DNA from: Crossaster papposus
Lineage: Eukaryota > Echinodermata > Asteroidea > Velatida > Solasteridae
Assembly: GCA_037893245.1 (NCBI GenBank)
Contig: JBAIAA010000661.1
Coordinates: forward strand, 983,001 to 1,047,000
Direction of reading: 5' to 3'
Length of the DNA stretch: 64,000 nucleotides
This document shows positions 3,701 through 59,443 of the stretch, one piece after another. The position numbers and the translations under genes were made by a program. Each line of letters starts with the position of its first letter. Positions within the stretch are counted from its first letter, which is position 1. Under the pieces are notes generated by a model. It was given only the letters and a program-made list of their open reading frames with translations, made no database searches and was not told where the DNA came from.

Positions 3701-6700
3701 TCAGTAGGATAACTTCATCAACAACTTTTGACAATTGGAGCGCCGGCCGCCGCGTGCAGGGTGATAGTCTTGCTACAAGACCGAGCTGACCGTTTGTTCC
3801 GGGGCGCGCCGTTCGTTTTTTCCGTCTATTCGGGCTTATTGAAGGCGCGCTTAATTATCGCCAGATTCGTTTCCCAGCACTAATGTGAAACAAATCTGGC
3901 TATAATTAAGGGCGCCCTCAATAAGCCCGAATAGACGGACGGTGCGCCCGGAACAAATGAACAGCTTGGTCTTAGAGCAAGACTAGCAGGGTGATCCTGA
4001 CGCGACAACTATCGTTTGCCTCGTACACGAACACACATACGTATTGTGTAAGTAGCACTGAGAAAAGGTTGGGCACCTTGGCCATTAAAAAGGATTTAAT
4101 TCAAGCCCTGGAATAACTTCAAACTACTTTTCACCATGCAGTGCAGGTGTAACCTTTTCGTCTGAACGCAAACATATTTTGAATTTATTTTTTAAATCTA
4201 AATGGCCAAAGGCTTAAATTGTATTAAGTTGTGCCTCCGCCTGAATGTATTTTGAAGGTTTCGTGGGCCATTCCAAAAAATCACAAGTTTCATGCATGCT
4301 GTGGATTTGGTAGGATCTTGACACAGTAAGAGATAAAGATTATGTAAAACTCACTGCTTTTCCCACGGAAACCTCTTCTGTAATGCATGCATCTTCGTTT
4401 TCCTCCTGTTTCTCTTCTGATAGCTTTGCAGGTAGTTTTGCCTCAGAGTTAGCTTCTGTGGCCTTAGTGATAGTCACAGCCGGTGGTACCACTGCTGCCT
4501 TGTTGACTGCTGTCTTCCCCTGAGCTTCCTTTCGTCGTTTTTCCGTCTTCTCCATCCGTGCGAAGGCTTGCATGATGGCCTCTATCTTGCGCTCTTCTCG
4601 TGTCATTTTCTTGGTGACCTCAGGGGCCAGCTTGACGGCGCGGTTCTCTTCTGATCCTTCTGTTTCCGCCTCTGTGAAGGTGCTGCTGTCTATGGGGAGG
4701 GCTGGGGAGGTTTCTGGGTTGCTTTGGGTGTGGTGCGAGGACTCATCACCGTTGGTGGCTGGCAAGGGCTGCGCTTGATTCTACATCAGAAAAGGAAACA
4801 TTTTGTTGTTATTTTACCAAAATGCTTCGCTTTTAAATTATAAATTTTCTTTAAATAACGGATACACTTTCAAATCAGATTCAGTTTTGAAAAATCACTG
4901 GAAATGAATGAATTAAAACAATGAAAAAGTAATGTGAAAATGTTTGACCTTAACCATTCCAGTTTTTTGCTGTTAGTATATAACAGATTTTCAAAATTTT
5001 TCATTTATGTTTTTTTTCTTTACAAAAACTTTAATCAAGACACATGTACATGTACGAATAGCAAATTACGGGTACCGGTACATGTACGATTGTTTTCACA
5101 AACATGAAAAATATTACAAGATCTCCTCATGAATTCAAATGCCAACTCTGGTACACTTTGCTAAAACAAGTATAAGTACATTGAACATGATGAGCAGTAG
5201 CAACTCGTACACAAATTATGGAGTACTCGAACACTGTGCACCGTGGTCAGATATAGGGTCGTATGGCAATTTATGTAAAAAAGTGCAGGGAAAAAAGTTT
5301 CACTTTTGTGTAATTGAGTTAATAGTGGGTGGACCAACACGTGATTAAATTGGAACATTTTATTTGTTTCCTAAATTTTTTAAAACATGAAATGCATGCA
5401 CACCAAACTGGAAAAAATGATGTTCAACAACATTTAAAAACATATTTTATAAAAAAAGGTTTAAAAATCCCTTTACAAACAAAAGTTCACAGCCTACTTG
5501 CCTGCGTACAAAAATTCAAGTTTAAGTTCGTGAATAATGTTGCCGGAAAAAAGTTATAATTATAAACATTTTGTTTCCCAATTTTTTAATTTTATTTTAA
5601 AAAAAAATTTACGATTTGAAATGTTGTTGCTTGTCTTTTATAGCGTACTTTTCCTATTCATTTAGATTCAGTGAAAGTGTTCAAATTCAAATGTGTTTAA
5701 TTTTTTCAGTTTCTAACCACAGGGGTCAGTTTCTAACCACAAGGGCGAGTTTCCAACCACAAGGGCGAGTTTCCAACCACAAGGGCGAGTTTCCAACCAC
5801 AAGGGCGAGTTTCCAACCACAAGGGCGAGTTTCCAACCACAAGGGCGAGTTTCCAACCACAAGGGCGAGTTTCCAACCACAAGGGCGAGTTTCCAACCAC
5901 AAGGGCGAGTTTTCAACCACAGGGGCGAGTTTCCAACCACAGGGGCGAGTTTCCAACCACAGGGGCGAGTTTCCAACCACAAGGGCGAGTTTTCAACCAC
6001 AAGAGCGAGTTTCCAACCACAGGGGCGAGTTTCCAACCACAGGGGCGATTTTCTTACCACAGGGGCGAGTTTCTAACCACAGGGGCGAGTTTCTAACCAC
6101 AGGGGCGAGTTTCTAACCACAGGGGCGAGTTTCTAACCACAAGGGCGAGCTTCTAACCACGAGGGCGAGCTTCTAACCACGAGGGCGAGCTTCTAACCAT
6201 GAGGGCGAGCTTCTAACCTTTAGGGCGAGCTTCTAACCAGGAAAACAAGCTTCTAACCACGAGGGTGAGCTTCTAACCACGAGGGTGAGATTCTAACCAC
6301 GAGGGCGAGCTTCTAACCACGAGGGCGAGCTTCTAACCACGAGGGCGAGCTTCTAACCACGAGGGCGAGCTTCTAACCACGAGGGCGAGTTTCTAACCAC
6401 GAGGGCGAGTTTCTAACCACGAGGGCGAGCTTCTAACCACGAGGGCCAGTTTCTAACCACGAGGGCCAGTTTCTAACCACGAGGGCCAGCTTCTAACACA
6501 AGGGTCAGCTTCTAACACAAGGGTCAGTTTCTAACCACAAGGGTCAGTTTCTGTAACCACAAGGGTGCGTTTCTAACATGTTTCCAACACAATAAGTGCT
6601 CAGTAGTTGTTGGTTGGGTGTGCAAATGTATATAGCTACCTGTGCATTATGAGCAGAGAGTGAGACCCTGAGAGGAGACACAGTTCGCTTCTTGCTGAGG

Positions 6701-9700
6701 TTAGAGACGACAGACAGCGAGGAGCTGTCCTGTAGATGGTTGCCGATAGGGTTCTTGGCCGGCGTGACTTGACTGTTCTGCCTCCTGAAGTGACGTTTCA
6801 CTATGCAGTTTTTCTTGGAACAGATGCAGTGCACTGGGTAGGAACTAAGATGATAACAAATCATGACATTAGTCAACAATTTTTACTTTTGACCTCAGTA
6901 CTTCACCTTTGACACGACCATCAAATAAAAGTTACACTTTTGCATTCATGACCCAAGTTTGATTGCAATTGGATCTCATTTTACCATGTAAAATAACAAA
7001 ATTCTGTGACTTTTCCATGACCTTCAATGATAGCTTTTAATTCTAGGATATTTTTCACTGCACAATGCAGTTCCAACGACGTTACTGGCAGTTCGTGGAT
7101 AATAATGATGATGATTATTATTATTATTTGTTATTCGACCATAAAATTAAAAAAAACAGATGGGCCAGGGGCCACAAAAGTAATGGCCGGCAGACCTGTT
7201 GCCCCCAAATATAATTTCTTGTGATAACTCCCCCCTGCAGCAGCAGATCTAACGTAACAACGTCTTGCCCAAAGACTACACAAAGCATAGCAATGTGGAG
7301 AGCAGTGAAGTACATGTATAACAAAGTCTACCAACTTGCCCTCAGCTTAAAGGTAGGATACACAATTTGCAGATATCGAAACAGTTTACTACCGAATTAT
7401 TAAGAAATATCTTACTCATCTGAAAGTAAATAATGATTCTAGGCATCCAGCAAAATGATTGCGGTAGATTTTCTTTAATTATTCTAAAATAATTTTTGCG
7501 ATCGCAAAAAACACAAATAACATAAGAATAACTGCTCGACGCCTGTTGAAAACAAACGCTGTTTTTCGTGCTTTTCTTGGCATTCCTGATTGTAAAACTT
7601 CGGACAGGTTAGTTAAACAATATTTACTATAAAATACAACCCCCAAATCCACCCATTCAGTATAATTCAAGCAATGACCAATGGTGCATTCTACCTTTAA
7701 CACATAACTGAATTTGGGAGGGTTTATGTACCTCCATGAGTATGAGTATTAGTTATGGTTTGACTCACCACTCCATGTAATTGAAGTCAAACCCAATAGT
7801 AACCTCCGTCTTCTTAGGAATATTGAGCAGGGCAAACAAACAGAAATGGAGCACATTGTTCTCAACGTAGTGTCGCACCTCAGCGTTGGGGGAACAGGAT
7901 CTTCTCACAAAACGTGCCAAGTTGCCGTAGTTACGCGCATCCACACAGATTTCCACATTGTTGAATTTGGAGTAAAACAACACAAACGGGTAATGCCTAC
8001 GAAAAAATAAGAAAAAAAAAAATGTATATTTAAGATTTTTGACTAAATTTCAATTTGATTAAAGCAAGTCCCTGCAAGTCCCTGCAAGTCCCTGCAAGTC
8101 CCTGCAAGTCCCTGCAAGTCCCTGCAAGTCCCTGCAAGTCCCTGCAAGTCCCTGCAAGTCCCTGCAAGTCCCTGCAAGTCCCTGCAAGTCCCTGCAAGTC
8201 CCTGCAAGTCCCTGCAAGTCCCTGCAAGTCCCTGCAAGTCCCTGCAAGTCCCTGCAAGTCCCTGCAAGTCCCTGCAAGTCCCTGCAAGTCCTTCAGTTCC
8301 AATTCAATTTGCAAGCTATTAAAATCAGCTTTGTCAAAAGCATTCCTTTGTCATTGTTCATCAAGTTACTTGTGAATGCCTTTATGAAGGGACTTGTGAC
8401 TGGCTTCACGAAAGGACTTGTGAACGGATTTGCAGGGACTCTACTACAACCATGGATTAAAGGCATCTTCCAAAAAAGGTTAAACTGCGGTTTGAATGAT
8501 GTGAGAGCAGTTTTTCCGATCCTTAATTACGAGCTATTGTAACAATATTGGCTTTTAAGAATGATTTATTTTGGCACATTTAGTACCCCAAACACTGTAC
8601 ATGTACGTGACATATATTTCGAGTGTTCTTTGTTACTAATACCGGTAGCACTCCTTACCTTTTTACCTTGTTAATTTTGGAATGTACCATTATTACATCA
8701 GCTAAAGAGGTTATGTTTTTTATGTTGTTTATTTGTTTGTTAGCAGGATTACAGAAAAACGGACGGAGTATAGATACGATAGCTTATGATTTAATTCTCC
8801 AATTGACCAGTCAAGAGCTTGTAAACAACGGGCAGACAAGTAATAGACCTATGATCACTTGCAACGCTTCCCTTCTTGACATCTTCATGGGCAAAACAGT
8901 CCTCCCCTCCCTCCCCTGTAAATGCCTTGCACTCACAGTGGAAACTGCCGACATTCTTTAGCCAGTAAAGATCAATGAACCTGGTCAACTCCTGGGCCTT
9001 TCCAATTTGACATATTCCTCAACTGCCTCTTGACTTTTTACACAGTGATCTCTACCTCTTCCTGACGAATAATACACCTCAATTCTTCTCTCACTTCTTG
9101 TAGCCACTGGTCATTGTGCTGCACTAGCTTATCCCAATTGCCACCCCAAAAAGCCTTTGCCTCAGCTGTGAACTTCCTGAGAATCGTCACCCTTACCCTC
9201 CAGTTCTCTGAATATCTGTCTTTGGTTTGAACAAAACAACAATTCTGACCAAACTGCTAAATCCTGTCGTCGTACCTCTTCACCTTTACCACCTTCACCT
9301 TAATCTCCTTGATCTCCTCCTTGGCGACTGTCATCCCCTATTCTTTGCCAAAGACAACACTATTTGACAGTGCGCCTGCTAACGACATAATTATTCCAGC
9401 TCCCTAACTCACACAGTGGTCTTTGCAAACTCGTTTAAATGGGGCGTGACCTTTTCATGCCATTTCGACATTCAAATATGCACAGCTTCTTCACGCAGTA
9501 AATGCACAGCTGCCATTCAGCAGTCATGCGGGCCTGCATCGCACATCGAATTAGCGCTGCTTCACAAAGAAATTGGATGCGTGGGCGTAGTATGTATTAC
9601 GCGTATGTAAACAACCGCCATTCTGCGATCGCCAATTGGCTCCCTAAAAAAGCCTGCTCAGAAATAAGAAAAAGATAAACTACTGGATAGAATTTTCAAA

Positions 9701-12700
9701 CACGAATGTGTGAGTTAGAGAGCTAATCTATAACCATGTAGTTAGCGTCAGGCGCGCGCAACGCGTGAACAGAATACGCGATGTGCACAATCAAATATTA
9801 AATCCAGTCGTCTTTGGCAAAGACTATTCATCCCCTTACCCTGCACTCGATACTTAGCCATAAGTCTATCTCTCATGCCAGAATTCTTCATAGCGATTCT
9901 GTTCATCTGCTCAATCCTGCTCGGATCTCTTCAGAGGTCATTATTAATATTATTATTATTCTAATCATTATTGTTATAAAATTCTTTGCAATTTGCAAGG
10001 ACGCATACTCACCGCTTGAAGAACCCTTTGTCTCCTTCCAACTGTTCCTTCAGCATCACCTTGCCGCAGTACTCAACGATCAAGTCGTTGCTTCGCAGGT
10101 TCTCCGAGGCAGTAATTCCTATGCTGGACGCACTCCTCCCAAATCTACTCAGGTCCACCAAGGGACTGGACGGCAGAGATAGACCGGTGAGGACAAACGG
10201 CGATGGGTCCAGTTTTGAAACTTTTGCCTGGGATGAAATGATGTGTTGAATATCTGCGCTATATTGGTTGCAGACTGCTTCCTCGTACCTGTCGTGCATT
10301 ATCCTGAAAAGACAACATTCAAGTGATCAATGTATTAATGCAATGACTTTTTGCAGGCCTTGATGTTAACTGCGGCCATTGGCTGCGTGCCCTGCCCAGT
10401 TAGCTGCAATGTTCCCTCAAAATTCACACTTAACGCCGCCAAGTTGACCAGCATGTCATTGTTGTATGAATCTTTCAATTTTAATAGATAGTTACCGTTG
10501 ATGGATCATGCATTTTGCGTTCGGTTTTGTTTGTTTTTTTCTTCTAAGAAAATACCGAGCTATGTTTGAAATACATGTGGGCTCCTGTAAGAATGCTGAA
10601 AACTCCTAAAAGAAGTACTGTTTCAAACACAATAGTCACTTTTTTTTGTTTTTTCTTGCATAATCTACCACTTGCACCCGCTTTGACCAGGATTTTGTTC
10701 GGGCGAGTCAAAAACAGTCGAAACCAGTATTAAATTTTTAAGAAAAAAAATGTAGTCGTATTTTTAAAAAATCCCGGACAAAATGTGGCAAAATCATACT
10801 AGTTTGCAGGGGTTCTAGTTACAATGGCCGATAAGTTTGCCAACACATGATAACAATACAGCATGAATTTGTTTCGTTTTTTAACTTGCCTGTAAAAATG
10901 CAAGGGTCTTGTCTTGCAAACTACCGGATAACGGTACAGTGTACGTTGAGAAGGGAACCTGCTTTGTAATGGGTCAATGTGAGTAAAATACCACATGTTA
11001 CAACAATATCTAGGCGGTACATGTATATGGTACCTGGCTGTTGAAAGTGTACGAAATACTGGTACCACAGACAACTGTACAGTGACCATGCATAATGAAA
11101 CAGCAAAAAAAACTTATATACCAAATGAAGACAAACAGGTTTCAGCTTGATACTTCTAACGGTTTTCTTAAAGTCTCTTAAAGTGTGGGTGTGAAGACAC
11201 CTTTTTTTGCACTCGCAAATTGCACGTACGTTTTGAAGCATCTTTGAAGGCCTACAATGTATATATTCCTATCCAATAAAGATGGAAAGCTGATAATTTA
11301 GAGGGTCTATAACTTCTGAATTTGAAGAGGTAATCAATTTATGATCGCAGAATCTGAAAATATGGCCAGATATTAGCCTAGACACAAATTATCAGTTTTC
11401 CATCTCCATTGGATATGAATAAATATGCCTTCAAAGATGCTACCAAAACAAAAGAGCAATTTGCGAATGCAAAAAAGGTCATCACACCCACACTCTGAAA
11501 AGCTGTAAAAGGAAAACCGTTAAAGGTATCAAGTAAAAACTTTGTTTGGTATACACACTATTTTTTGAATTTTTTCCAGGCAAATCTAAATCGGGTCATA
11601 TGGGAGATATACTGATTTCGTGGGATTTGACACGGAATGACCCAAAGCCAAAAAGAAAAACCAAACAGGAAAAACAAAATTTCTGTGCAACAATTTCGGC
11701 AACAGGTGTTCGGTAACTACATCAGGTTTAACTCAGGAGAGCGCGAGATATTTATGGCTTTAGCGAATACATTAAAAGGAACAGTTGGGTGGATATAGCC
11801 TGGCCTACAATTAACCTGTGACTCACTCTGAATCATTCCATGCTGGCAGGACCTCCTCGTCCATAATGTTAAGCTCCATTGCAGCTGTGATATCCACCGA
11901 CTTTTTGCTGTGGCGCTTCTGTGATGTACAGCAGACACCGAAAAAAAAAAAAAAAAAGTTGGTAATTTAATTGCAACAGGTATATGAAAGCATCTATACA
12001 ACAATACTATGCTAATAAATGAGCCACATTTTAATGGTTGAGAAATATGTTGAGGACAAATTGGCAATAAGGGCAATTCTGTAAAATACAACTTACATCC
12101 GACCACATGATGTACACATTTAAATATGTACGAGATTGTTAGGTTGGTGGTGTACCTTACATGTAGTTTGGTCTGCGATTGTTTTTTACTCGGTTGCCAT
12201 ATTAGTGATGCATCACTTTCACTTTTCCCAACAAAGCTCATTTGTGTGTAAATCTGTAAATTTACGGAATCGCTCTACTGATTCTAAAAAAATAACTGTT
12301 TTGATAATAAAATGAAACAGGAATAATTTATTTCTTGGATGTTTTTTTGTTTCTTTCTTATATGGCATTTACAATTTGGTTACTGCAAGAATTCACGGAC
12401 AATTCATATGTACTAACAACAAACACGCATAAACGCATATCAGGTGACCCTTCAAATACAAAGCTGAAGAAGCCGAGTGATTAACCACGAAACGTACAAA
12501 GTCCAACACCATACATGGCAACTACAACACTACAACTGTTGCACACCGATTATGGTGGTATGCCTGGCCCCCTTTAAAGCATTATCAGTTTGTGAATTAC
12601 ACACTCCAACAGATTCCAACAAAACATGCAGTTGGATTTTAAAGTTGGGGTGGTTAGGGTTTAATGTAATTGTTGTAATTTGTTACAGGCTTTTTGTGTG

Positions 12701-15700
12701 AAGATGCTTGTATGTGACCTACATACATGTACTGAGGCTAAATAGAGAATGTCCCCCAAAACCTTGTTTCGTGTAATCGGCACCGGAAGTTAGTCATACG
12801 TGCAAAATCATTTTAAAATCGATTCCCAAAATTTCTGTATTTTTGAGTTGCCAAGGTATTTAAGATCACACTGCATTTTTATTGTGAATAAATACCCCCA
12901 AATTTCCACTGCTGTTGGTGGCACAACCTTGTATGTTTTTTCAAAGTTCTTTTTCTCGAAATGCAATCGCAAAAGTTTAGCGGCGCACTGTCAACCTTCC
13001 TGTGGTATATCTTTGGAATTAATTGAGCTACAGAAATAATTTTGGTAATATTGGAAATTCCATTGTCTGCTCTTTACTATGGTGTAAAAATGAAAATAAT
13101 CTAAGATGGGGTTATTCTCCATTATGCCATGGCAGGTCACATTTCAGAAACTACAATGTTTCCTATTTCAAAACCATTACATGTGCATTGCGGTTGTGTG
13201 GCATTTCACAATATAAAGCACCCAGTGTTTCTTCTTCAATGTAATACAGTTGCTGCATAATCTGAACCACTGAAGTGGTATCGGATGTTTATACTAGCAG
13301 TTACTCTTTCGATTTGGACTTTCAGAATGGCATTTCACTCTGTGCTCCATGAGATACTGTACTTACATGTACATTCTTCTTCACAAAGCCAGGAGTGGCC
13401 GTTATATTTCCCAGAAAAGGCATGCATACAGACTCATGCCAGTTCGGCAACTTGTTCATCAGACAAAATGTACTTATCATACACTGTAAGTCTCCCATGC
13501 CTTGCATGTACCGCCAAATCAAATCAAGAGCAATACACATTTATTAAACTTTTACAGTTTCATCAGAAAGTTACTGATGGGATGGGCCAGTATTAAAAAA
13601 CAAGTATAGGAATATTTTGTCGCACGCCACTGTTTTTGTTTTTGTACTATTATTCCCTTTAAAGTGTAGTTACATGTTCATTGGATGGAGTAGACAATGG
13701 TATTACTTTTTACTACACCTCATCAATATTCATGAGCAAATTGAAGCGTGTCATTGGCCGATTCTGCTGCACGTCCGGGAAGTAAAAAATGATACACTGC
13801 CAGGTGATGTCATCCCAGTGAGTATCCAGCTCACTGCCGTTCGGTATTCTAAATCCCCTTTGCAACCCGCCTCGTTGACATGTACATGTAGTCTGTGGTG
13901 TGTAATATTTACGGAACCAGTCTCAGTAACATTACTAGACTTTCGTTCTTGACGAAGAACTTGCTGAATTAAGATGCAAAAATCTACAAAGCCGTTATCG
14001 ACAAGGCTGTGAATATTTATGAGGTGTAGTAAAACAAATACAGCCTGGTTTATTTCAGAAAAATAGTGGGAATTACTCGTTTCCTCGGTAGGTAGTCGAG
14101 CTGACCAACACCTTGGGACCAGTAATTCCCACTACTTCCCCTCAAAACATGCTGTATTTGTATAATACATCGTGATTCATTCACTCAATAACTCCCCAAA
14201 AGGTTTAGTGTGACAATCCGAAAGGCTACAATAGGTCTGAATATTCATTGTACCGCACAACAAAATCCAATATATCTGTTAATTCTTGCCTTTCTCTTTT
14301 TATGATGTTTATCCTCTTCCTTTTCCTTGCATCTTTTCTTCTTCTTCTTCTTCATCTTCTTGTGTTTGTTGTGTGTGGTCAGTGTCAGGCTTGTAGGAGA
14401 GTTGGATATTGCTGTGTACGTCGCTGCGGCGCTTACTGACTCGCTTGGAACTTCATCACCACTGTCGCTCGACGAGTCGTCTGTTGCAAATCAACAGATA
14501 TTGACTGTAAGTCACTGTGAGGTCTCAGAAAGCTTGTGATAACACCGCACATGAAAATTACTGTCCATTATCACATGCAATTCTGTTTCACTTTGTTTAT
14601 CTGTGCAACACTGTGTACACTGTGTTTCATATCTTTCCTTGGCATAACTTAGACAAGGCAATCAAACTTGTATTACATTTGCATGTAAAAGGACAATTTG
14701 TTCACCTTTATAACCTAAACAATCCTTTGGTTTACATGCAAATTACATTGTCGTGTGCAATATCAAAATAATGTCATGCACTATCCTAAAACTTCTATAC
14801 ACAAATTATTTTTGTTCTTTCAGGAAGGGAAAAATACTGCGACAGTATCGCGATATCCCCATTGCCTGCTGGCAGTATTTATACCGTTGTTTGGCCTTAC
14901 CCGACATGGCTGCACGTTTCTTGCTCTGTAGTGCCACAGCTCGCTGCCTGTCCACTTCCCGTGGCTGGCACCTCTCACAATAGAATGTCTCTGGGATGTT
15001 GTCCCTCTCCAGACCCATGCAGTCCACATGCTGCCAAACGCAGCAATGGTCACAGCAAATCATATAGCCATCATCATGTTCAAAGTTGCTGCAAAGATGA
15101 TTGGGGAGAATTAAACTGCGTTATCGATCTAAACAAACGAGCAAACTTACAGTACTTCACTTGTTGATTCGGAAGATAATATTTAGAGATAACATGAGAT
15201 ACAATCAAGCGGAATGAGTCAAATGTCGGGGAAATTCCAAAAATGAACCGTGTTCTTCGTTGGTATTTCAACAAATTTACATAACTCGACAACAAAACAT
15301 TGTATCAACATGGGGTTTTCAGTTTTTAAAACGTACAGATGCCCTCTTTATAACTATATGAAAACTCATTTTTTGACCGGGGCCGACACCCGACTCATTC
15401 CGCTTGATCGTGTCACATATAAAAAAATTATTGCTAAAACCATGTCAGCCTGAGTTTGTTTCTATCTTTAAATTGCTTCCTGCTTGTGCTTTAGTGGACA
15501 AAAAAACATCCTTTTTACGGGTAATCATCTTTCTGAGTCACCCTAGTATTAAGCAAAGGGCATTTTTAACACGTATGAATAAACGTATGAATAACAAAAC
15601 ATCCCAACATCTTGGCTTTCCACAGGAAAATTAGAGCACTTTCATATAAAGGACTTTATTGGCCTAACAATGCACAGAACACCTTATCAGACTGGGCCTT

Positions 15701-18909: not shown

Positions 18910-18998
18910 TACGCAGTATTTAACATGAGGTGAAATCGTTGTCGTTGTCGGGGGTGCAGGGCAGCTGTTGTCCAAGGGACACTGCCCATTGCACACAT
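18909..18998 (-). promoter_or_regulatory. Upstream ORF ending on the KMT2E-like start codon
   Basis: Within the inferred 5' UTR an ATG at 18998 opens 29 codons that end in TAA at 18911-18909; the last A is the A of the main ATG, giving TAATG. Further in-frame ATGs lie at the fourth and twenty-fifth codons. If the exon is as modelled, ribosomes must terminate exactly at the main start, so reinitiation or leaky scanning would set output. Confidence 0.6.
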
Positions 18999-19703
18999 GG
19001 CAAGTGCTTTGTCCTCAGGACCCTGTGATCAAGAAAAAAATCAACTGGACTTTAGCAGCATAAAAAAAAGGTACATAATTGTACATGTACATGTATACAC
19101 ATTTATGCACAGTAAAAAATAATAATACAACCGACATCTTGTGTTGGATCATTATCGTATGCCCATGTCCTTTGGCTTTTTATACAATTTTGGTGATAAA
19201 GATATAAATTGTATGACAATTATTTGGTAATCAATCATAGACATCATTTGGTAAAAATAATTGTGTACTTCCTGTAACTCTATTACCCGGTAACCTATTC
19301 TGTACATGTACATGTACTCTAATATGTTAGATGTACTGTACTGTAGATGTACTGCACATGTATGGTACATGTTGTGCACGGGTATTTCCATAAATAAGGG
19401 TGCCAATGCATCTTTATGCATAACTTTGTACATGTATGGATTTTCAGTATGTGCTAATGGTTTATCCTTGTCACTCAAAACATGAATCGTACAAATAAAA
19501 TTTCATACATGATACAAAAAATTGTTTCACGTGTAAAATCTTTTTTGTTATAAATATCTGCATGATTACAGAGAATGTGCATAGAGCATGAGCAGTGGGA
19601 AAGTACAAATAACCTCAATCCTCAAAAATCCTCATTTGGATAAATACCCAAGTAACCTCTATCCTGCAAAATAATCCAGCATTAGTTTAAGCCTGATGAC
19701 CTG

Positions 19704-19950
19704 GGGGCCAATTTCATAAAACATGTAAGCACAAAAATTTGCTTAGCACAAAAAAGTCTTGCTCAGTAAAAAAAAGGTTATCGGCCAAAACTCCATCGTA
19801 AGCTTTTCATTCAAAGCAAAAAACAGCTGAATACCAGTCACAAACAATAAACATCAACAGAAATGTTGGATTGTAACCCTGTTTTTTTCAAGGAAGAATT
19901 TTGAGGCTAAGCAAATTCTGATGCTTACATGTTTTATGAAATTGGCCCCT
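19704..19950. mobile_element. MITE with 28-bp terminal inverted repeats
   Basis: Both ends read inward as GGGGCCAATTTCATAAAACA followed by TGTAAGCA. The interior is AT-rich and non-coding. No clear target duplication. Confidence 0.72.
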
Positions 19951-21132: not shown

Positions 21133-21400
21133 AACTATAACCATTCAGCAGTCGCGCGGGCCTGCGTTGCATATCTAATTAGCGCTGCTACACAAAGAAA
21201 TTGTGTACGTGCGCGTAGTAGGCCTACGTCTTGTGAACTGCCATTCTGCAATCACCGGTTGGCTCTCTAGGAGTAGCAGGTTTGCAGGGACGATGGTAAG
21301 AGTAGAGGGAACTGGTCTATCGTGTCGTTTGCGGGCACACTGCGTGAAAAGATTGTACGCGACGTGCACACTATCGATTACCATCATCTTTGGCAAAGAC
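21133..21400. mobile_element. Left-truncated copy of the family 4 foldback element
   Basis: From CATTCAGCAGTCGCGCGGGC to the terminus CTTTGGCAAAGACTA it parallels 9510-9827. The left terminus is not recognisable. Confidence 0.65.
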
Positions 21401-21448
21401 TACCACCGCAGTAGCAGCCAGTAGGCCTACTGTACCATCATGGGAGCA

Positions 21449-21791: not shown

Positions 21792-22084
21792 GAGAGTCAA
21801 CTCGTACGCCAGTCAACTCGTACGCCAGTCAACTCGTACGCCAGTCAACTCGTACGCCAGTCAACTCGTACGCCAGTCAACTCGTACGCCAGTCAACTCG
21901 TACGCCAGTCAACTCGTACGCCAGTCAACTCGTACGCCAGTCAACTCGTACGCCAGTCAACTCGTACGGCAGTCAACTCGTACCCCAGTCAACTCGTACC
22001 CCAGTCAACTCGTACCCCAGTCAACTCGTACCCCAGTCAACTCGTACCCCAGTCAACTCGTACCCCAGTCAACTCGTACCCCAT
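21792..22084. repeat. 16-bp minisatellite, about 18 copies of CCAGTCAACTCGTACG
   Basis: The first 11 or so units end TACGCC; later units end TACCCC, a clean switch near 21975. The core is shared with the 31718-31964 array on the opposite strand. Confidence 0.96.
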
Positions 22085-25053: not shown

Positions 25054-25346
25054 TAGCCTTGGTCAAGGCGCGTTTGTCGTTATCCGTCCGCCGTTATCTG
25101 TCCAGAAATACACGCCACGCGTGCCCCGCATAATGCTAGCTCGCGCTCCCCGTGCAAAATGTACAGTGCGAACAGCGACCTCATATTATGGCCACTATTT
25201 ATGCGAATCAACTGAAGCTACTTTTGCACTTTTTCGTATATCTTCAGTTGATTTGCATATAATAGTGGCCGCGTGAGGTCGTGCTCCGATTACCGCCGCG
25301 CCGTACGTACGGACGGGTAACGATGAACGCCTTGACCAAAGCTATA
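25054..25346. mobile_element. Foldback DNA element, 9-bp TSD CTGTGGACC (family 3), copy 1
   Basis: Direct repeats CTGTGGACC at 25045-25053 and 25347-25355. Left terminus TAGCCTTGGTCAAGGCG, right terminus read inward TAGCTTTGGTCAAGGCG, with two extra bases TA before the right duplication. Non-coding. Confidence 0.87.
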
Positions 25347-25602: not shown

Positions 25603-25898
25603 TAGCCTTGGTCAAGGCGAGTTCGTCGTTATCCGTCCGTCGTTATCCGTCCAGAAATACACTGTGCGCGCGCCCCGCATATGCTGCTAACTTACGCCCC
25701 GTGCAAAGATACTGCGCGAACAGCGACCTCACACGGCCACTATTTATGCAAATCAACTGAGGCTACTTTTTCAAGTATCTTCAGTTACTTTGCATATAAT
25801 AGTGGCCGCGTGAGGTCGTTGTTTGAGCTCCGATTACCGCTGCGCTGTGTCCGTACGGCCGGCCGGACGGGTAACGATGAACGCCTTGACCAAGGCTA
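25603..25898. mobile_element. Foldback DNA element, 9-bp TSD GGGTTTGGG (family 3), copy 2
   Basis: Perfect duplications at 25594-25602 and 25899-25907. Both termini read TAGCCTTGGTCAAGGCG. The interior parallels 25054-25346 in order and orientation. Confidence 0.92.
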
Positions 25899-25978: not shown

Positions 25979-26241
25979 CACTGACCTCAACACCTGGACG
26001 GATCATTGTCCATATTCTGCTGTGCTAACACTTGAAGTCGGCGCGAACTGGAAGTGCAACATGGCGTCACTGCTGTGAGCCAATGAAATGTCCAGTTGTA
26101 GAGGTCAGTGGATTTACCAACCAACTGAACTCTACACCTGGACATTTCATTGGCTCACAGCAGTGACGCCATGTTGCACTTCTCTGCATGCCGACTTCAA
26201 AATGAAACAATGGATGATCTGTCCATGTATAGAGGTCAGTG
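25979..26241. mobile_element. hAT-like foldback MITE, TSD GTAGATCC
   Basis: Perfect 8-bp duplications at 25971-25978 and 26242-26249. Termini CACTGACCTCAACACCTGG and, from the right, CACTGACCTCTATACATGG. The internal arms carry the same terminal motif again near 26103 and 26127, so it looks like a dimerised inverted element. Confidence 0.88.
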
Positions 26242-28700: not shown

Positions 28701-29110
28701 GTACTGTTATAGTGTAATGTTCACATTTTTGAACGACACGCGTTCCCGGTCTCGGCCCACCGCCATACTGGGCGCTAGAGGGCGCTGATGCAGCTTCGGC
28801 GGGACCGAGCGAATTTTCTGTAGGTATTCCGATTGGCCCTTAGCCTCGGTCTAGGCGCGTTCGTCGTTTAATATCCGTCTGTCATCTAGACTTGACCCAA
28901 GTCGGACTTACCATGGAGTTAAGACTACCAATTTGCTTTCGTCAATCCGGCCGAATAATTATGTGCTTGCTTTGTTGGCCTTAGATATAGGGCGCCCTCA
29001 TCTGGTTGTCGTTCCGCATCAAAGTGATGTCATATCATCATGTCAGTGCAGTAAATCACCACACATGAGCGGGGGCGGTGCACTGACCTCAACACAGTGG
29101 GGCGGTGCAT

Positions 29111-30455
29111 TAGCCTCTGTCATGACCTTTCTAAAAGGTCAACGCGAGGAAAATTGTCAAAATGGCGGCGCTTACCAACAGCAACACGTGTGTCGTCGAT
29201 GTCAGAACTTTATGGATTACGACGGAGCTCTAAAGGCTGTGGTTATTTCGAAAGGATAAACCGTAGGCATAAGGCTAAATGTCATCCAAAACCGTAAAAT
29301 TACGAAAGAAAAAGAAACAGCGACTGAAAAAATGGTCAGTTTGTGAAAGCGTGCTGCGCTATATACGTACGTGCGTAGCTAGTGGATGTCAGACAAGTCG
29401 ACCGTTGAGACAACTCGACTCGGGACAAGTCGACCGTTGAGACAACTCGCCCGTTGAGACAACTCGCCCGTTGAGACAACTCGCCCGTTGAGACAACTCG
29501 CCCGTTGAGACAACTCGCCCGTTGAGACAACTCGCCCGTTGAGACAACTCGACCTTTGAGACAACTCGACCTTTGGGACAACTCGACCTTTGGGAGAGCT
29601 ATAGCTGTACTTCGACGTTTACATTGTTTATAAACAGTTAGTGTTGGGCCGACTTTCCTCATGCAATGTTGCCATACTTCTTTGTTGACAAACTGCAAAT
29701 TCATTGTACCTTTACCATGTTAATGTTATTAATGCTTGCTATTTACCCTCTGTTAACAATTTAGGTGTAAGCTTAGTCCGAAAAAAAACAAAACGGTGGC
29801 GTCCAGAAATTGTGCACACAATCGACCGAGTGCTCCCTAATTGGTCGTGGCGCAATTGAATAATTTTTTGGAAAATCCAAGTTTAATATTTACGAACTTC
29901 TTTTAATGTCAGGTTTCAGTCAATAAAAGGATAAAATATTACTAGATTTCAGGCGTCTGTACATTTAATGTGACAGTATTTAAAACTGGTTTTTAAATTA
30001 ACATTGCAGGATCAGGAATTTTGAGGTTTAACGTCCATATAGTAATTATGTGAACCAAGTGCTTGTGTGTAAATAATTAAAAATACAAAAATAATATTGC
30101 TTGTACATGTATCAAGTTGTTTGTTTACTGTATGGCATTCAAATATGGCTTTCAAATAAAGCTTCAGTTCAGTGCCACTGAATTTTTTGTTTTGTTTAAA
30201 TGTTAATTTGGCCTAACCGGTTTTCTAAGGAGCATAAATACACGGCGGGTCTTTTCAAGTGCAGGAAAGAAAATCTAGTTTTATGATTGGCCATTTTTTA
30301 TTAAGTATTTCCCCGCAATTCATTAACTATCTGTTGTCTTTCCTCCATGGTATGGCTACTTACGTTAGTTTTACGCGCGAGCTCGAAAGCCATATTGACA
30401 AATTTCCGCAAAACGCCCTCTTCGGTTGATTTTCGTCATTTCATGACAGAGGCTA
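29111..30455. mobile_element. Inner DNA element nested in the family 2 element
   Basis: Inverted termini TAGCCTCTGTCATGA and TCATGACAGAGGCTA, with AT on both sides. Terminal arms remain similar for about 60 bp. The uninterrupted relative at 59000-59299 supplies the empty site. Contents: a 17-bp minisatellite (29392-29590) and AT-rich DNA with no recognised gene. Confidence 0.8.
29392..29590. repeat. 17-bp minisatellite, about 11 copies of AACTCGCCCGTTGAGAC
   Basis: Edge units read GACC instead of GCCC. The array lies inside the inner transposon. Confidence 0.94.
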
Positions 30456-30620
30456 ATGAGGGCGCGCTACTGATGAGCGTGGACGTGACGCGTGGCGCAC
30501 GATGTGGATGACTATGAGCAATGTTGAAACATAATCCCGACTTGGGTCAAGTCTATCTGTCATCCGGCCAGAAATACACGCCACGCGCGCCCTGCAAATG
30601 CTGCTAGCTCGCGCTCCGCC

Positions 30621-31393
30621 CACTGACCTGTACACCTGGACAGACCATTGTCCATATTCTGCTGTGCTAGCGCTTGAAGTCGGCGCGAACTGGAAGTGCA
30701 ACATGGCGGACCCAAGACGTCACTTCTGTGAGCCAATGAAATGTCCAGGTGTAGAGGTCAGTGGATTTACTCTATACATTTTGTATTTATAAACATTACG
30801 TCATACGTACCGTACCCACTGAACCTTACACCTGGACATTTCATTGGCTCACAGAGTGACGTCGTGGGTCCGCCATGTTGCACTTCCAGTTCGCGCCGAC
30901 TTCTGGGGTGCGTTCCACTCCAGCGAACGTTGCCAACGTTGGCCAACGTTAGCGTTGTTCGCGTGAGTGGAACGCAATGTGCGCCAATTATGTTGGCGAA
31001 CGTTGGCGAAAACGGCGAACGACATTCCGAGCTGTTCGCTGTTGGCCAGTGACGTATTTTAATGATGGCGAAGCGGTTAGCAGACGGCAGGGTTCTTTTC
31101 ACGGTTTTTATTTACGTTTTATACTTTTCGTTATAAACGGTGGATTGTTTTGAGCATTCACAGGGATCTTTTAAAGAAAAACAACGAGTTGGACAAAAAG
31201 CAGCGAACCAAACGATGTCACTTTCACTGGGCGCCGCCATTTTGAAAACGTAGTTTTTAGAATATCGTTCCACTTCAATTAACGCCAACTCAAAACGTTG
31301 GCGAACGTTCGCGCAAACAGTTCGCGTAAGTGGAACGCACCCCGAAGTGTGAAACAATGATGATCTGTCCATGTGTACGTGTAGAGGTCAGTG
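30621..31393. mobile_element. hAT-like MITE, TSD GCTCCGCC, interrupted
   Basis: Perfect 8-bp duplications at 30613-30620 and 31394-31401. Termini CACTGACCTGTACACCTGG and, from the right, CACTGACCTCTACACGTAC. Without 30905-31343 it matches the 263-bp element at 25979-26241. Confidence 0.88.
30905..31343. mobile_element. Inverted-repeat element nested in the hAT-like MITE
   Basis: Termini GGGGTGCGTTCCACT and AGTGGAACGCACCCC. Subterminal AACGTTGGCGAACGTT words occur in both arms. No clear target duplication. Confidence 0.78.
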
Positions 31394-31534
31394 GCTCCGC
31401 CCCGTGCAAAGATACAGCGCCAACAGCGACCTCATACGGCCACTATTTATGCAAATCAACTGAAGCTACTTTTTCGCCTCGGGATCAACGGTTTTTGAAA
31501 TCTTATGTTTTTCCTATATTTTGCGCCAAATTTC

Positions 31535-31709
31535 TAGTCTTGATCCAAGACCAAGTTAGCCGTTCATTTGTTCCGCGGCGCGCCGTCCGTATATCCGGGA
31601 ACGAATCTTGCAATAATAATTATTAAGGGCGCCATCAATAAGCCCGGATATATACGGACGGCGCGCCGCGGAACAAATGAACGGCTAGCTTGGTCTTGGA
31701 TCAAGACTA
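31535..31709. mobile_element. Foldback DNA element, family 1, copy 2
   Basis: Both ends read TAGTCTTGATCCAAGACC. Arms of about 80 bp include GCGGCGCGCCGTCCGTATAT. A target duplication is not convincing (AAATT at most). It abuts the 31718 minisatellite. Confidence 0.85.
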
Positions 31710-31717
31710 GAAATTGA

Positions 31718-31964
31718 CCCGGGTACGAGTTGACCCGGGTACGAGTTGACCCGGGTACGAGTTGACCCGGGTACGAGTTGACCCGGGTACGAGTTGACCC
31801 GGGTACGAGTTGACCCGGGTACGAGTTGACCCGGGTACGAGTTGACCCGGGTACGAGTTGACCCGGGTACGAGTTGACCCGGGTACGAGTTGACCCGGGT
31901 ACGAGTTGACCCGGGTACGAGTTGACCCGGGTACGAGTTGACCCGGGTACGAGTTGACCCACTT
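31718..31964. repeat. 16-bp minisatellite, about 15 copies of GACCCGGGTACGAGTT
   Basis: Almost perfect copies. The reverse complement AACTCGTACCCGGGTC shares its core with the array at 21792-22084. It lies about 340 bp upstream of the METAP2 start codon, possibly in the promoter region. Confidence 0.97.
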
Positions 31965-32301: not shown

Positions 32302-32304
32302 ATA

Positions 32305-51179
<18,875 letters not shown>

Positions 51180-51193
51180 TCCCAAGAAATAAG

Positions 51194-51448
51194 CAGGGTT
51201 GTAGTCGACTCCCTGCAAGTCCGTTCACAAGTCCTCTCGTGAAGCCAGCTACAAGTCTTTTCATAAGGGCAGTCACAAGTATCTGGATGAACAATGACAA
51301 AGGAATGCTTTTGTCAAAACTCATTTGAATAGCTTGTGATTTGAATTGGAACTGGAGGACTTGTGATGGACTTGCAGGGACTTGCAGGGACTTGCAGGGA
51401 CTTGTGATGGACTTGCAGGGACTTGTGATGGACTCGACTACATCCCTG
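51194..51448. mobile_element. hAT-like MITE in the METAP2 3' flank
   Basis: Termini CAGGGTTGTAGTCGACTCC and, from the right, CAGGGATGTAGTCGAGTCC. Flanking GAAATAAG and GAAACAAG differ at one of eight positions. It contains four GGACTTGCAG units and is the inverted relative of 8065-8454. Starting 15 bp after the stop codon, it is probably in the 3' UTR. Confidence 0.83.
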
Positions 51449-51549
51449 GAAACAAGGCAGTTAAAGATATTGCACTCATGCATATTGATGAGTCAAACAG
51501 GCTACTTTTATTGTGCCAACGTATCAGGGAAGTGGAACGTACGAAGTAG

Positions 51550-54115: not shown

Positions 54116-54878
54116 TTAACTAGTTGGGTGACTATCACTTAATTAATTGGGTGGTACTGGTAATTAGTACCACAAGGTAGCTCCTGAACTCAACAATATG
54201 CAACAAATTATTTACACACATTTTGTAGGAGGGATTAGCTAGAGAATTTTTGAAAAGTTGATGACGGAACTGAATACATGTACATGAGTTCCATTAAGCA
54301 TTGGAAAAAAGGTGTGGTTTGTTTCGGGCAAGGAGTACAAAATCATTTGTCCCTTGATTTTGGTTGATAATGACTACCTTCCTAGGTTATACAATGTAGT
54401 ATTTTGGCTTGCCATCACAATTAGGGGTTGAGATAAATAGGAATAATGAAAAGTCAATTTTCCTATAGCGTTTTTGAAATTAGTTTTTGCCTAAAATTAA
54501 AGGTTACCATCTTAAATGTCATAGCAACATTAAAGAGCTTTGTATGTTATTTGTCTTTAATACTTTAAACATTTGGGTTAGATTGTTGATTTTGTTTACA
54601 TGCAAAATGTGCCCATTATTTTAAGAACAAAGTTGTGACACGCCCCCATAAACTAACAAAATCTGCTCATTTTGACATGTAAATATTTTTTTTCTCGATT
54701 GGTCAATATAATGTCAAGTTGATTGTCTGCTTTTGCTTTCCCGCCTTGTACTTTTGTAAAACATGCACCCACCCTCAAAAAGACAAAACACTTTATTTTC
54801 TTTCTTTATTACGGTGTAGCATTTGGGTCAGCTGTCCAAATGTAAAAGAAAAACTCAAATTATCGAAATTAGTTTATG
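54116..54878. other. Intergenic, nothing recognised
   Basis: AT-rich DNA without a convincing gene or repeat. Confidence 0.5.
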
Positions 54879-55086
54879 TTAACCAGTTCGCGCCGGGATT
54901 GTTTTAACGAAACTCGATCTGAAGCGGGTTCAGGCCAATAGTGCCAGAAAGCACACCCACACATTTCCAGCCTTGCTCGCTGCTGACAAACATTCCGGCC
55001 TTACTCGTGGCGTGTTTATGCGTCATTCGTTTTGAATCTGGGGAAAATGTTGCGTTTATATACGTCATCCGGCGCGAACTGGTTAA
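54879..55086. mobile_element. TTAA MITE (CCAGTTCGCGCCGG family), copy 3
   Basis: TTAA at 54879 and 55083; termini perfect complements over 14 bp; inverted relative to copies 1 and 2. Confidence 0.88.
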
Positions 55087-55652
55087 CGAAACCTGTACTT
55101 TTTAATGCCATGGCTCCTCCCATAAAATGGCATCAACTGCTTTTGAACTTGTTAATGTATCCATGTGTGATCCAAAACGGTTCAAAGTGTATATTTAAAA
55201 ATATTCGTGGCCCCCTGCAATCCCACTGATCTGACTACATGCATGTGCGATTTGCCAACACCAGTAATCCCCTCAAACCCTCTTGTACAACCTCGCACAG
55301 TTCTGCTCTGCTCTGCCTCAACTTGGTTGCAAGTTTTGGCCCTGATTTGATCTCATTGCGTCAGTCAAGCATCATCTTTGTTTAATGAACTTAGCAAGGT
55401 TGAACAGATTAAAACTATGTTTGTGGTATATTAGAGCAAAAAATATAAAGGTTTATGGAATAATCAAAATATACTTTTCATGCTTAAAAAGAAACTGCGA
55501 AAAAGCAGACATTGCGAGTATTTACGTTTTATGTGATTTCTAGAACGTTACCTTTGCCCCTTTATAATGTCTGTATTTGTTATGATGTATGTGCGATCCA
55601 TCAACATGAAAACTTGAGTATGTTTTATGCATGTGAAAGTGCAACCCCCTTT

Positions 55653-55894
55653 TTAACCAGTTCGCGCCGGGATTATTTTAACATCACCGAGCCGAGGGGC
55701 GGGATTATTTTTAACGAAACCTGATCCGAAGCGTGTTGAGGCCAATAGTGCCGGGAAGCACACCCACGCATTTCCAGCCTTGCTCGCTGCTGACAGACAT
55801 TTCCGAACTTGAACTTGGCGTGTTTATGCGTCATTCGTTTTGAATTTGGGGAAAACTTTGCGTTTATATACGTCATCCGGCGCGAACTGGTTAA
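55653..55894. mobile_element. TTAA MITE (CCAGTTCGCGCCGG family), copy 4
   Basis: TTAA at 55653 and 55891; same orientation as copy 3. The right TTAA also begins an AAGGTAGGGTAGACC sequence of the other TTAA family. Confidence 0.88.
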
Positions 55895-56480
55895 AGGTAG
55901 GGTAGACCATTTGCAATGTGTTCATTTCTGTTTCATTTTAAGCAGCAAAAGTGCTCACAATCTAAAAACAGGTGTTTGAAATTTTAGCTTCGTGAATGCT
56001 GTATATTCCGATGAAAACTAATTAATATTATCGGATCTCTATTTCAGTTCAAAATTTGTGGCGTCATATTCTGAACTGCGCTATGCAAATCTTTGGAAAT
56101 AACCTTATTTTTTTATATATTTTTTAATTACAGCATGTCGGAAGGAATAAATTGAAAAACAAGTTATTTCAAGAATAATTTGGTCGGTTCTGTTTTTAGA
56201 AAACTGCAATTGGTATACTCCACCTTCAAGGTTCATTTTCTGTATAAAGTTGCAACTAAGTTTCTTGTACAATTTTGGCTCGTCTGCAAGATTTTTAATT
56301 TTTAATTTTTTTTCCCTAAATGTTTTGAGCATGTTAGGTCTTTTTGGACATTTTCTGATTTATCAATTTTGCTTACATGTATTTACATTGAAAAAAATAT
56401 ATATTGCATTTTTTTTAACATGAATATGTAACATCCTTTGTACACAAAGTTCAAACCCTATATCTAGCAATGCTGGATAC

Positions 56481-56680
56481 TCAACTGAACAAAAATATAA
56501 ACGCCCCAAAATTGTTATTTGTGTTCATCTCTGCCAGTGAGGAATTGCTCAGTGATGCAGTGATTCCACCCACAACACAGATGTGGGTGGAATCACTTCC
56601 TCACAGAGATGGACACAAATGTTGTTTACAAATCAAGACAAATGACCTTTTTGTGGGCGTTTATATTTTTGTTCAGTGTA
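56481..56680. mobile_element. MITE with ACTGAACAAAAATATAAACG termini
   Basis: Inverted ends ACTGAACAAAAATATAAACG and CGTTTATATTTTTGTTCAGT; a central hairpin GTGATTCCACCCAC / GTGGGTGGAATCAC. Confidence 0.82.
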
Positions 56681-58998
56681 ATTCAGTTATCGTTAAGAGA
56701 TTTATTTCCAGAGACCGTTTCTGTATTAATGAGACTAGAATAACATGTTATAAGGAAAACTTTCAAATAGTTCAATCCGTTTCTATAGTTTCAAGGCCGT
56801 TTCATACCTCGCATGAATGTAAAAGAGGGACTACCATGACGTCAATGATTGATTAAAGTTAACATACCCTGACGAATTCGCTTCTTGCTTGAATTTGCGT
56901 CAAGTATAAGACTTTAGACATCAGTTGACGACAGGTATAAAAACAAAAGGAAAAGCCTGAAAGGTTGATAGTTAAGGTTTTTTTAATGGAACGGTGCCAA
57001 TGATTTTTCAAATTAACAGAAAGAAAAAAAACTTCCTTTCATTCTTTAGCTTACCACTCTACAAAACACACATACTGTATATGTTTGGAATTTACTAAAC
57101 ATGCGCATAAAGTTATACTATTCATTTTACGTAGATGTTTCCTGTTCAGTTATTAAACAAGCATGATGATAAAAACCCGAATGAGATTATAGTTATTTCT
57201 TAGTCCTTAATTAACGCTGTTCTGGCAGCTTGTACGTTCTGCGTATAGTGCGCAACATCGCACAGTATGTGGGACGCGCCCGCCCAATGAGTTGTTTACG
57301 TGTGGGACCATTTTGGGTTGAACTATGAACTTATTCATTCAGAATAAATTTCACAGAAGTCGTTGATGAACACATGTTATTGTCTATACTGTAGTTATAT
57401 GATTTCTGGGGTTGAATACCAGGGAAATCATGTGCAACTCCTCCATATTGGTCGTCTTTTTAAACAGTTGAACATATGCACAGTCTACTCTTGCTCCACA
57501 GTTAATGTAGTCTAGCCATTATGGAGATCAATGGTCTAGCCCTAGACCTTTGTGTTATTTCGGCGCCCACTCGCGCGCAGATTCGTTAACGCTGTCTCTT
57601 GTTCAAATGCCGGTGTGGCGGTCTCACTTCTCCGGCGTGCTAGCTTCTCCGGGCGGATTGAGCGGATAAGTCAGCACGTTACAATCACATACTAATTTAT
57701 CCGCTGTGCTTACTTCTCCTGATGCCTGGCTACCAACAGAGGGCGCTATCACCATATTTTTCATCGCATTTATGACAAAGTGTGGCTGATTTCAGGACCA
57801 ATTTTCGTTAACTGATCACTCAGATAACTATATAGGGACAAATTGAAAAATAATTTAATTTGAAGATTGTAGCAAGTTGTTTTCATCAGGGGATGATTGA
57901 CTGAACCATGGAGGAATAGTTTATTCCTCCATGACTGAACTGAGAAGAAGCTTTAATTATATCCCTGAGTCTGAGCATGGAGGAATATCTAGTTCATTCC
58001 TCCATGGTCTGAGCACTCACATGAGGCGGACTATGTAAATCTTGTTTATGCGGATACCGTACCACCGCATTACAAATATTCGTTATTAATATTATTATAA
58101 ATAAATGCAACAGTCATCAGATAGATAGAAGATAATACGATCGCTCTTTTTCTTGTCAGAAGCGAGTCTGGCCGTCATGTCTGCTGTCGACGCCGCCGTG
58201 TCGAAGCAAAAGACCGACTATTACTAGTCTAGTACAGCATAGCAGTAGTACAATTTTGTCGCACGCGCCCTGGATTCTACTGGTACCCTGTAACGTACGT
58301 AGACACATCCTACAATCTTACGTTCACCAGTACATCACCAAAGAACTCAGCACACAGAATAAAGTCGTGTGCGTTCTGGTCTCACGCATGCGTAGTTTAC
58401 AAAATGCTGCTAGATCCGCAGAAGACAACCTGAGGCTACCTGGCGCGCATCTAGCCGCTCGTTGGTATCAGAGGTGGCTCCGTTAACCAACGTATGATAT
58501 GCAATAATATGTCCCCTCCATTGCCAATTACAGTTGTGTTGCAGTATATCTGGATGATTGTTTATGTTGTTAATGACCTTGTGTAGGAATGTTAGATGGT
58601 TGGTTTGTCATGGGAGCTATGGTTTGTCGAACCCAAGCTAGGACATTGTCCGAAAGCCCATCTTTTTGGCGCCGGTTATGCTATATATAATTATATATAT
58701 TCCCGCTTGTTCCAGTTTTGGGTGTGGCCCACATTCATATAATCTTATATATTATATATTAATCTCCATATAATCTTGAATTTTTTTGCTAAAAAAAATC
58801 AGAGGAAAGAGGCCAGGAATCGCCTCAGATTGCACCAATTTTTTTAAGAAACCACATTTGTGCAATGGTGCCGTGTGCCGGCAATTTATGGGAATAAGCG
58901 TACACTACATTGAACGAAAACGACTCAGCGCGCGGCATGCGGGGGCGAGTAGCTATTTGAGCTATGCTTGGAATGTCCTCGCAATTTTACGGGTTCAC
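56681..58998. other. Intergenic, no gene recognised
   Basis: It holds a small palindromic block around CATGGAGGAATA / TTCCTCCATGG (57907-58014) and otherwise unassigned DNA. Confidence 0.45.
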
Positions 58999-58999
58999 G

Positions 59000-59299
59000 T
59001 AGACTTGATCCAAGTCGGGATACTGTGGTAACATTGCTCATGGTCATCCACATAGTGCGCCACGCGTCACGTCCACGCTCATAAGTAGCGCGCCCTCATG
59101 CGCCGCCCATGCTCATGTGTGGTTCAGATAATTTACTGCACTGACATGATGACATCACGTTGATGCCGATCGCGGAACGACAACCAGACGAGGGCGCCCT
59201 TTATCTAAGGCCAACAAAGCATTTAATTAGTTCGGCCGGATTGACGAAAGCAAATTGGTAGTCTTAACTCCATGGTAAGTTCGACTTGGGTCAAGTCTA
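59000..59299. mobile_element. Family 2 foldback element, uninterrupted copy
   Basis: Termini TAGACTTGATCCAAGTCGG and, from the right, TAGACTTGACCCAAGTCG. Flanks GGGTTCACG and GGGTTCACA (9 bp, one mismatch). It matches both halves of 28887-30555. Confidence 0.9.
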
Positions 59300-59308
59300 G
59301 GGTTCACA

Positions 59309-59443
59309 TGACTCTTGCGCCAAGACCGTGCTAGGGGAACGAATCTGGCGATAATTTAGGCCTTCTCAATAAGCCTGGATATAATACCGACGGCGCGCCG
59401 CGTAACAAAATGAACAGCTAGTTCGGTCTTGGATTATAGTGGT
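59309..59443. mobile_element. Decayed family 1 element
   Basis: It contains CTCTTGCGCCAAGACC, GAATCTGGCGATAATTTAGG and CGACGGCGCGCCGCG in the order of family 1, with a deleted left arm. It starts directly after the family 2 target duplication. Confidence 0.65.

Follow-up and report, generated by a model that had tools for sequence, protein, structure and literature searches.

The window, the whole 64,000-nucleotide stretch of DNA analysed here (C661:983001-1047000 of the searched Crossaster papposus genome, 1,023,315,904 bases in 1841 contigs), carries seven two-ended transposable elements of four families, whose ends consist of TA followed by a short palindrome. These elements belong to a large, real group of palindrome-ended, non-autonomous transposons that duplicate 9 bp of their target. 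They show the inverted ends, the duplication of fixed length, the many copies and the lack of any copy encoding its own transposase that characterize non-autonomous DNA transposons of the miniature inverted-repeat transposable element (MITE) or foldback kind. Moreover, a variable base pair of the palindrome covaries between its two arms, and this covariation is genuine in the variety of its pairs, resting on few independent events. About an even chance is given to the reading that these are cut-and-paste transposons whose ends are symmetric sites, moved by one transposase or by related ones; that the enzyme is of the Academ superfamily, nearest to AcademH, is the less certain part.

Family 1, a foldback family, is represented by F1a (3765..3985, 221 bp; ends TAGTCTTGCTACAAGAC / TAGTCTTGCTCTAAGAC; duplication GCAGGGTGA, 9/9) and F1b (31535..31709, 175 bp), which has perfect ends and no duplication. 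Family 2 comprises F2a (28887..30555, 1669 bp; duplication TCTGTCATC, 9/9), the longest of the seven, the other six measuring 175-488 bp, and its shorter relative F2b (59000..59299, 300 bp; duplication GGGTTCAC(G/A), 8/9), with the loop ATC at one end and ACC at the other. To family 3 belong F3a (25054..25344, 291 bp), flanked on both sides by CTGTGGACC, the right-hand copy being preceded by an additional TA (or, read otherwise, by 11 bp, 10/11), and F3b (25603..25898, 296 bp; duplication GGGTTTGGG, 9/9). Family 4 has F4a (9339..9826, 488 bp; duplication (G/T)TCATCCCC, 8/9), with a decayed left end, TATTCTTTGCCAAAGAC, reading TATTC..., and the right end TAGTCTTTGCCAAAGAC; its ends diverge past the palindrome, and inner inverted similarity is 74%. 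Three remnants accompany these elements: F1c, a decayed family 1 piece beside F2b (59328..59434); F3c (28841..31475), split by nested insertions, F2a among them, into pieces at 28841-28886, ~30565-30618 and 31398-31475; and F4b (21141..21402), which keeps the right end TAGTCTTTGCCAAAGAT at 21402 and two stretches sharing 77-79% identity with F4a, no left end being found. Because the elements nest in one another, their relative insertion ages can be read.

The termini that an earlier note on this DNA had reported are exact at 31535, 28887, 25054 and 25603, with one mismatch at 59000 and two at 3765 (loop CTA), and each is paired with an inverted copy. Matches to the four end patterns with at most three mismatches number 9, 4, 5 and 7 in the window, against 0.14, 0.00, 0.10 and 0.19 expected. 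In addition, a scan that accepted any inverted ends flanked by duplications of 7-11 bp recovered F1a, F2a, F2b, F3b and F4a (19 rows in the window, counting shifted duplicates and six candidates of other kinds) and recovered none in five simulated windows; the simulations, here and for the stem-frame count below, were first-order Markov, five each. TA with a 6-bp-stem palindrome is by itself not diagnostic, as the window has 50 such sites, of which 11 are ends of these elements. Within F2a the longest frame is 127 residues, and none of the three frames scanned has a Pfam match above cut-off.

The length of the target duplication was assessed in a table of 23 elements, namely the seven of the window, 13 distinct family 1 insertions and three elements of new families. 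The 13 insertions come from 20 close pairs among 100 listed sites, a few listed pairs being omitted and 7 of the 20 being excluded as repeat copies (L015, L016, L023, L026, L027 and L028 of the L009 site, and L022 of the L010 site). The three new-family elements had been detected via their duplication and were therefore excluded as evidence on its length. In the remaining 20 elements, the duplication is exact in 10 and 8/9 in six (L010 was scored 8/9 from identical flanks in L022), so that 16 of the 20 have 9 bp with at most one mismatch. F3a and L012 have 9 bp plus TA, or equally 11 bp with one mismatch, the extra TA lying between duplication and terminal TA, once on each side (window 25345-25346; L012 99-100), while F1b and L018 have none. 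Wherever a duplication is present, mismatches are 0-1 at 9 bp and high at 8 and 10 bp. It is on this per-element table that the length rests, since the raw scan rows, inflated by palindromes and tandem arrays, do not favour 9 bp (426 rows at 8 bp and 270 at 10 bp versus 29 at 9 bp).

When F2a and one copy of TCTGTCATC are removed from F3c, the sequence aligns across the junction with F3a and F3b, and the insertion of F2a into F3c is confirmed by the clean empty site that these two relatives show. A scan of 310,242 bases gave 75 rows with inverted ends and a 9-bp duplication (at most one mismatch), of which 16 began with TA, more than with any other start, and 11 of the 16 were palindrome-ended elements. 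The earlier note's view of mobile elements with 9-bp duplications is upheld by the duplications, the empty site and the genome-wide counts below, with some correction of detail. Of the six duplications it called clear, those at 3765, 25603 and 28887 are exact and that at 59000 is 8/9; that at 25054 has the extra TA, and family 4, which it placed at 9350, does have an element there, though one starting at 9339, the duplication given as TCATCCCCT being one base off.

Across the genome, with reversed end patterns as the background control, family 1 ends with at most two mismatches occur 2489 times on the forward and 2505 times on the reverse strand, the reversed pattern giving 43 and 48. Ends with a three-base loop (loop-3) and a first base other than T number 729 and 728 (reversed, 37 and 29), and those with a two-base loop (loop-2) and any first base 2059 and 2281 (reversed, 19 and 25). 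The four families held to exist are all in the window, but four is too few, as three further end types were met in fetched DNA of the same genome.

The covariation of the variable base with its partner, also proposed earlier, is borne out and extends to a second stem position. Among 100 listed of 1457 loop-3 non-T ends, the variable pair is A-T in 88, C-G in three and unpaired in nine (91/100 complementary). Among the 30 readable of 100 listed loop-2 ends (4340 in total), it is C-G in 16, T-A in nine, A-T in one and unpaired in four (26/30 complementary); these rows are not all separate, since five T-A rows belong to a single tandem array and two C-G rows represent the same site on opposite strands. 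The sites listed for loop-3 and loop-2 ends are the first in contig order rather than random draws, and, with shared descent as well, the percentages cannot serve as a test for independent events; what carries weight is the variety of pairs. At the first variable position T-A, A-T and C-G pairs each occur with more than one loop; at the second, T-A alternates with G-C (TAGTCTTG..CAAGAC and TAGTCTGG..CCAGAC), and the family 4 stem carries one added base pair. The frame TAGxCyzGnnnCz'y'Gx'C occurs at 47 sites in 263,034 bases (the window plus 20 fetched 10-kb stretches), 38 of them with all three pairs complementary, 20 of these 38 being the family 1 ends that guided the choice of stretches. Five simulations gave 13 sites of this frame and none fully complementary. 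The frame with a two-base loop gave nine sites, four fully complementary, versus 12 sites and one in the simulations.

How far the two ends of one element agree differs between families. In families 2 and 4 and a new family at L035, they agree across the palindrome and then diverge, the shared end of families 2 and 4 being a 17-19 bp palindrome with weak or short inverted similarity further in (in F2a a short inner inverted repeat, by eye). In the L037 family, as in families 1 and 3, the agreement extends past the palindrome. The term foldback, earlier applied to all four, suits families 1 and 3 and is not supported for the whole set. Close opposite-strand pairs of family 2 among the listed sites, read by eye, have the same stem with the loop ATC at one end and ACC at the other in 27 of 31 cases; of the other four, three have ACC at both ends and one has ACT and GCT. 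As ends diverge past the palindrome and loops differ on one stem, the stem, the TA and the spacing look like the constrained part of the end. By eye, the stem is shorter and the loop longer in TAGTCCGAGTTACTGGACTCTA, another element with a 9-bp duplication.

Side observations were made on these ends elsewhere in the genome. The end sequence TAGTCTTGGTCAAGAC is repeated five times in tandem with 17-bp spacing at C1:807930-808013, which resembles a satellite built from a transposon end. An end TAGTCTGGTTCCCAGAC, or a near copy, lies ~240-250 bases inside the family 1 arms in L032, L036, L041, L046 and L047, as if one element had been captured in another and then co-amplified. In contig C156, family 1 ends and genes with the domain DUF6589 repeat every 260-270 kb, which suggests a very large tandem duplication.

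A full-length copy encoding a transposase between the same ends, which the earlier note had recommended seeking, was looked for and none was found. The 5.1-kb element in L009 has family 1 ends and a long broken protein, without Pfam or NCBIfam match above cut-off, and as an autonomous family 1 element it was rejected: the same gene occurs in L054 (98%) without the family 1 shell, and copies of 617-620 bp exist without the insert. These are not internal deletions of L009, in which, instead, an Academ-like element is nested inside one of family 1; the junction is not a clean duplication, as the empty copy L026 has ~16 bases there that are absent from L009. Relatives of the L009 protein are numerous (at least 100 matches), and four of them have readable ends. 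L050 begins TAGTCCGTGGGC, L051 TAGTCCATGAGCC and L055 TAGTCTGGTGGG, each at both ends, with 3-bp duplications TTT, ACC and TAT, respectively; in L054 the left end begins TAGTCTAG and the right end TAGTTGGG, and TAC flanks the element on either side (read by eye). All four start TAGTC, L054 at the left only. Because of their 3-bp duplications, the lineage description in PMC10045372 and nuclease-like motifs seen by eye, these four may be called AcademX-like. That the motif pattern at the C-terminus is an XPG/FEN1-like nuclease was rejected as a tested fact, as searches of Pfam, NCBIfam and the Protein Data Bank gave nothing similar. L049, L050 and L051 have intact frames of ~1535-1575 residues; the inverted ends of L050 span 737 bp at 97% identity, and ends were looked for and not found for L049.

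The L050 protein has a weak match to DUF6589 (E 2.4e-4, below cut-off), from which DUF6589 may be taken to mark the Academ transposase. This domain is matched 112 times in the genome; 14 control genomes give no match. Genes carrying it lie, for example, at C111:161429-162946, C429:1267746-1268678 and C794:292574-293155. Comparison of copies gave no element boundary: the flanking pieces of C723 and C481 have no homology in common, and the homology of C429 and C146 overruns the right-hand pieces and, on the left, does not continue past a repeat.

The preferred explanation is that one transposase, or a set of related ones, moves MITE-like and foldback derivatives. It would bind each end as a twofold-symmetric site through two identical DNA-binding domains, one on each half-site, so that a change in its specificity would alter both half-sites at once; it would cut at TA and insert the ends into the target 9 bp apart on the two strands. 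More tentatively, the enzyme would belong to the Academ superfamily and stand closest to AcademH by duplication length. An Academ relative is the leading guess because the TAG-type starts resemble those of the Academ-like elements here and AcademH is reported to make duplications of 9-10 bp. TAGTC, TAGAC and TAGCC are the starts seen among the 9-bp elements; their 3-bp counterparts in this genome mostly have TAGTC. A stronger form is possible but doubtful: the whole end code would be a minimal palindrome (TA + G-N-C-T-T-G / C-A-A-G-N'-C) that evolves, transposase and symmetric site shifting their specificity jointly in the two halves, and the result would be orthogonal families of animal transposons with a common 9-bp cut.

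Several observations weigh against this explanation. No element carrying both these ends and a transposase was found, and these ends are absent from the ~3.9 kb beside the C111 DUF6589 gene and the 1.06 kb beside that of C429, stretches that stop short of the element boundary. The 100 listed family 1 ends (of 4994) are all more than 10 kb from any listed DUF6589 match, with the closest at ~22 kb (by eye). The four Academ-like elements make 3-bp duplications and have no perfect palindrome, one having a near-palindrome of the wobble type, and the start of family 2 is TAGAC and that of family 3 TAGCC rather than TAGTC. As to the covariation, one fully paired loop-2 site also turned up in the simulations, the variable position is unpaired at the nine loop-3 and four loop-2 sites given above, and the independent events are only a handful, as copies share descent, although they exceed those noted earlier.

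The strongest rival, itself rather unlikely, is that these are Mutator-like elements (MULEs), of the MULE, Phantom or Rehavkus type, that duplicate 9 bp and whose palindrome is a local peculiarity of their ends. According to PMC6446971, MULEs make 8-11 bp duplications, a range that includes the 9 bp found here, and Rehavkus combines 9-bp duplications with a minisatellite before the 3' inverted repeat; F2a has a minisatellite in its interior and F1b adjoins one. Tm1, described in PMC3169594, is a foldback family of MULE type with 9-bp duplications. However, the TAGTC start is held in common with Academ-like elements of the same genome, and the inverted ends of families 2 and 4 reach only ~17-19 bp, although MULE inverted repeats go down to 14 bp (PMC6446971). 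The Mutator origin suggested earlier is unproven, since no transposase with these ends, MULE or other, was found (no Mutator search of the genome was made), and an Academ relative fits at least equally well.

It is improbable that there was a single ancestral family with chance substitutions, the covariation being a founder effect of one source copy per family. A few large families account for most sites, so that 91 of 100 complementary sites would reflect few events, and the unpaired sites in both lists speak for it as well. Nevertheless, complementary pairs come in three kinds at the first variable position and in two at the second, in elements of different bodies and with loops of one to three bases, whereas random change would be expected to break the stem in most founders.

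About as improbable is that the ends act as true DNA hairpins, extruded or single-stranded, whose fold the transposase reads, as the transposase of bacterial IS200/IS605 elements recognises a folded structure: stems are indeed kept while loops vary in sequence and length, but hairpins of the naked DNA have little stability (-3.6 to -4.1 kcal/mol, DNA parameters), a double-strand DDE-type reaction, which requires no fold, is indicated by the symmetric inverted ends and the duplication fixed at 9 bp, and a palindrome read by a protein dimer predicts the same covariation and accounts for it equally well. For these reasons the symmetric protein site is preferred, and the earlier suggestion that a hairpin is conserved is not supported over a palindromic binding site. 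No description of such ends occurs in the titles and abstract openings listed (up to 20 entries for each search) on terminal palindromes with 9-bp duplications, Rehavkus, Academ and XPG, or AcademH and AcademX, a body of literature from which most subscription papers are missing; for DUF6589 no paper was listed, and the exact family 1 pattern has no match in viral contigs.

Other features of the window include an inverted-end family (ACTGACCT..) with 10-bp duplications, at 25980-26240 and 30622-31392 (GGTAGATCCC, 10/10; CGCTCCGCCC/GGCTCCGCCC, 9/10); its second copy sits in F3c and contains a further element starting GGGGTGCGTTCCACT (by eye). The minisatellite inside F2a (29391..29592) consists of 12 copies of the 17-bp unit AGACAACTCGACCGTTG, and the one adjoining the right end of F1b (31714-31960) has a 16-bp unit. 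These two share, by eye, a core like CAACTCG/CGAGTTG with other 16-17 bp minisatellites at 21795-22083 and 32574-32646. A 15-bp minisatellite of ~208 copies (99% matches; 37093-40220) has open frames on both strands, and one of 17 bp has 76 copies (44865-46155). The window is animal nuclear DNA, with a PAN plus fibrinogen-C gene at 62047-63018. From their translations, a PHD-finger exon at 14809-15120 may be KMT2E-like and a peptidase M24 match, below its cut-off, METAP2-like.

If the palindrome-ended elements are the 9-bp branch of Academ in a genome that also has a 3-bp branch starting with a similar TAG, they would show a change of target stagger within one superfamily. The 3-bp Academ-like elements found here, with their similar first bases, allow the question of what fixes the stagger length to be tested by comparison. 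The covarying half-sites, in turn, offer a natural series of matched end codes for studying the DNA specificity of transposases and cross-mobilisation between families.

Among known systems, Merlin, once proposed as the origin, is set apart by its 8-bp duplications (PMC10045372), against 9 bp here. Rehavkus is similar in its 9-bp duplications and its association with minisatellites, the latter seen here in the interior of one element only, F2a, where no transposase was seen; it differs in its reported hosts, arthropods and annelids (PMC6446971), and in its PHD-finger transposase, which was not found in the window elements. The Tm1 Mutator/Foldback family of root-knot nematodes likewise has mostly 9-bp duplications, MITE-like forms and foldback-type ends, but those ends bear asymmetric 7-bp motifs as well as tandem repeats and, as far as the excerpt of PMC3169594 goes, have no terminal palindrome. 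AcademX is reported to make 3-4 bp duplications (PMC10045372), unlike the palindrome-ended elements; L050, L051, L054 and L055 resemble the latter in starting TAGTC and differ in their 3-bp duplications, long protein-coding bodies and lack of a perfect terminal palindrome. AcademH differs in that no helicase or transposase was linked to the ends of the window elements, no search having been aimed at a helicase. Its reported duplications of 9-10 bp (PMC10045372), however, include the 9 bp found here, and the TAG-type ends resemble those of the Academ-like elements of this genome.

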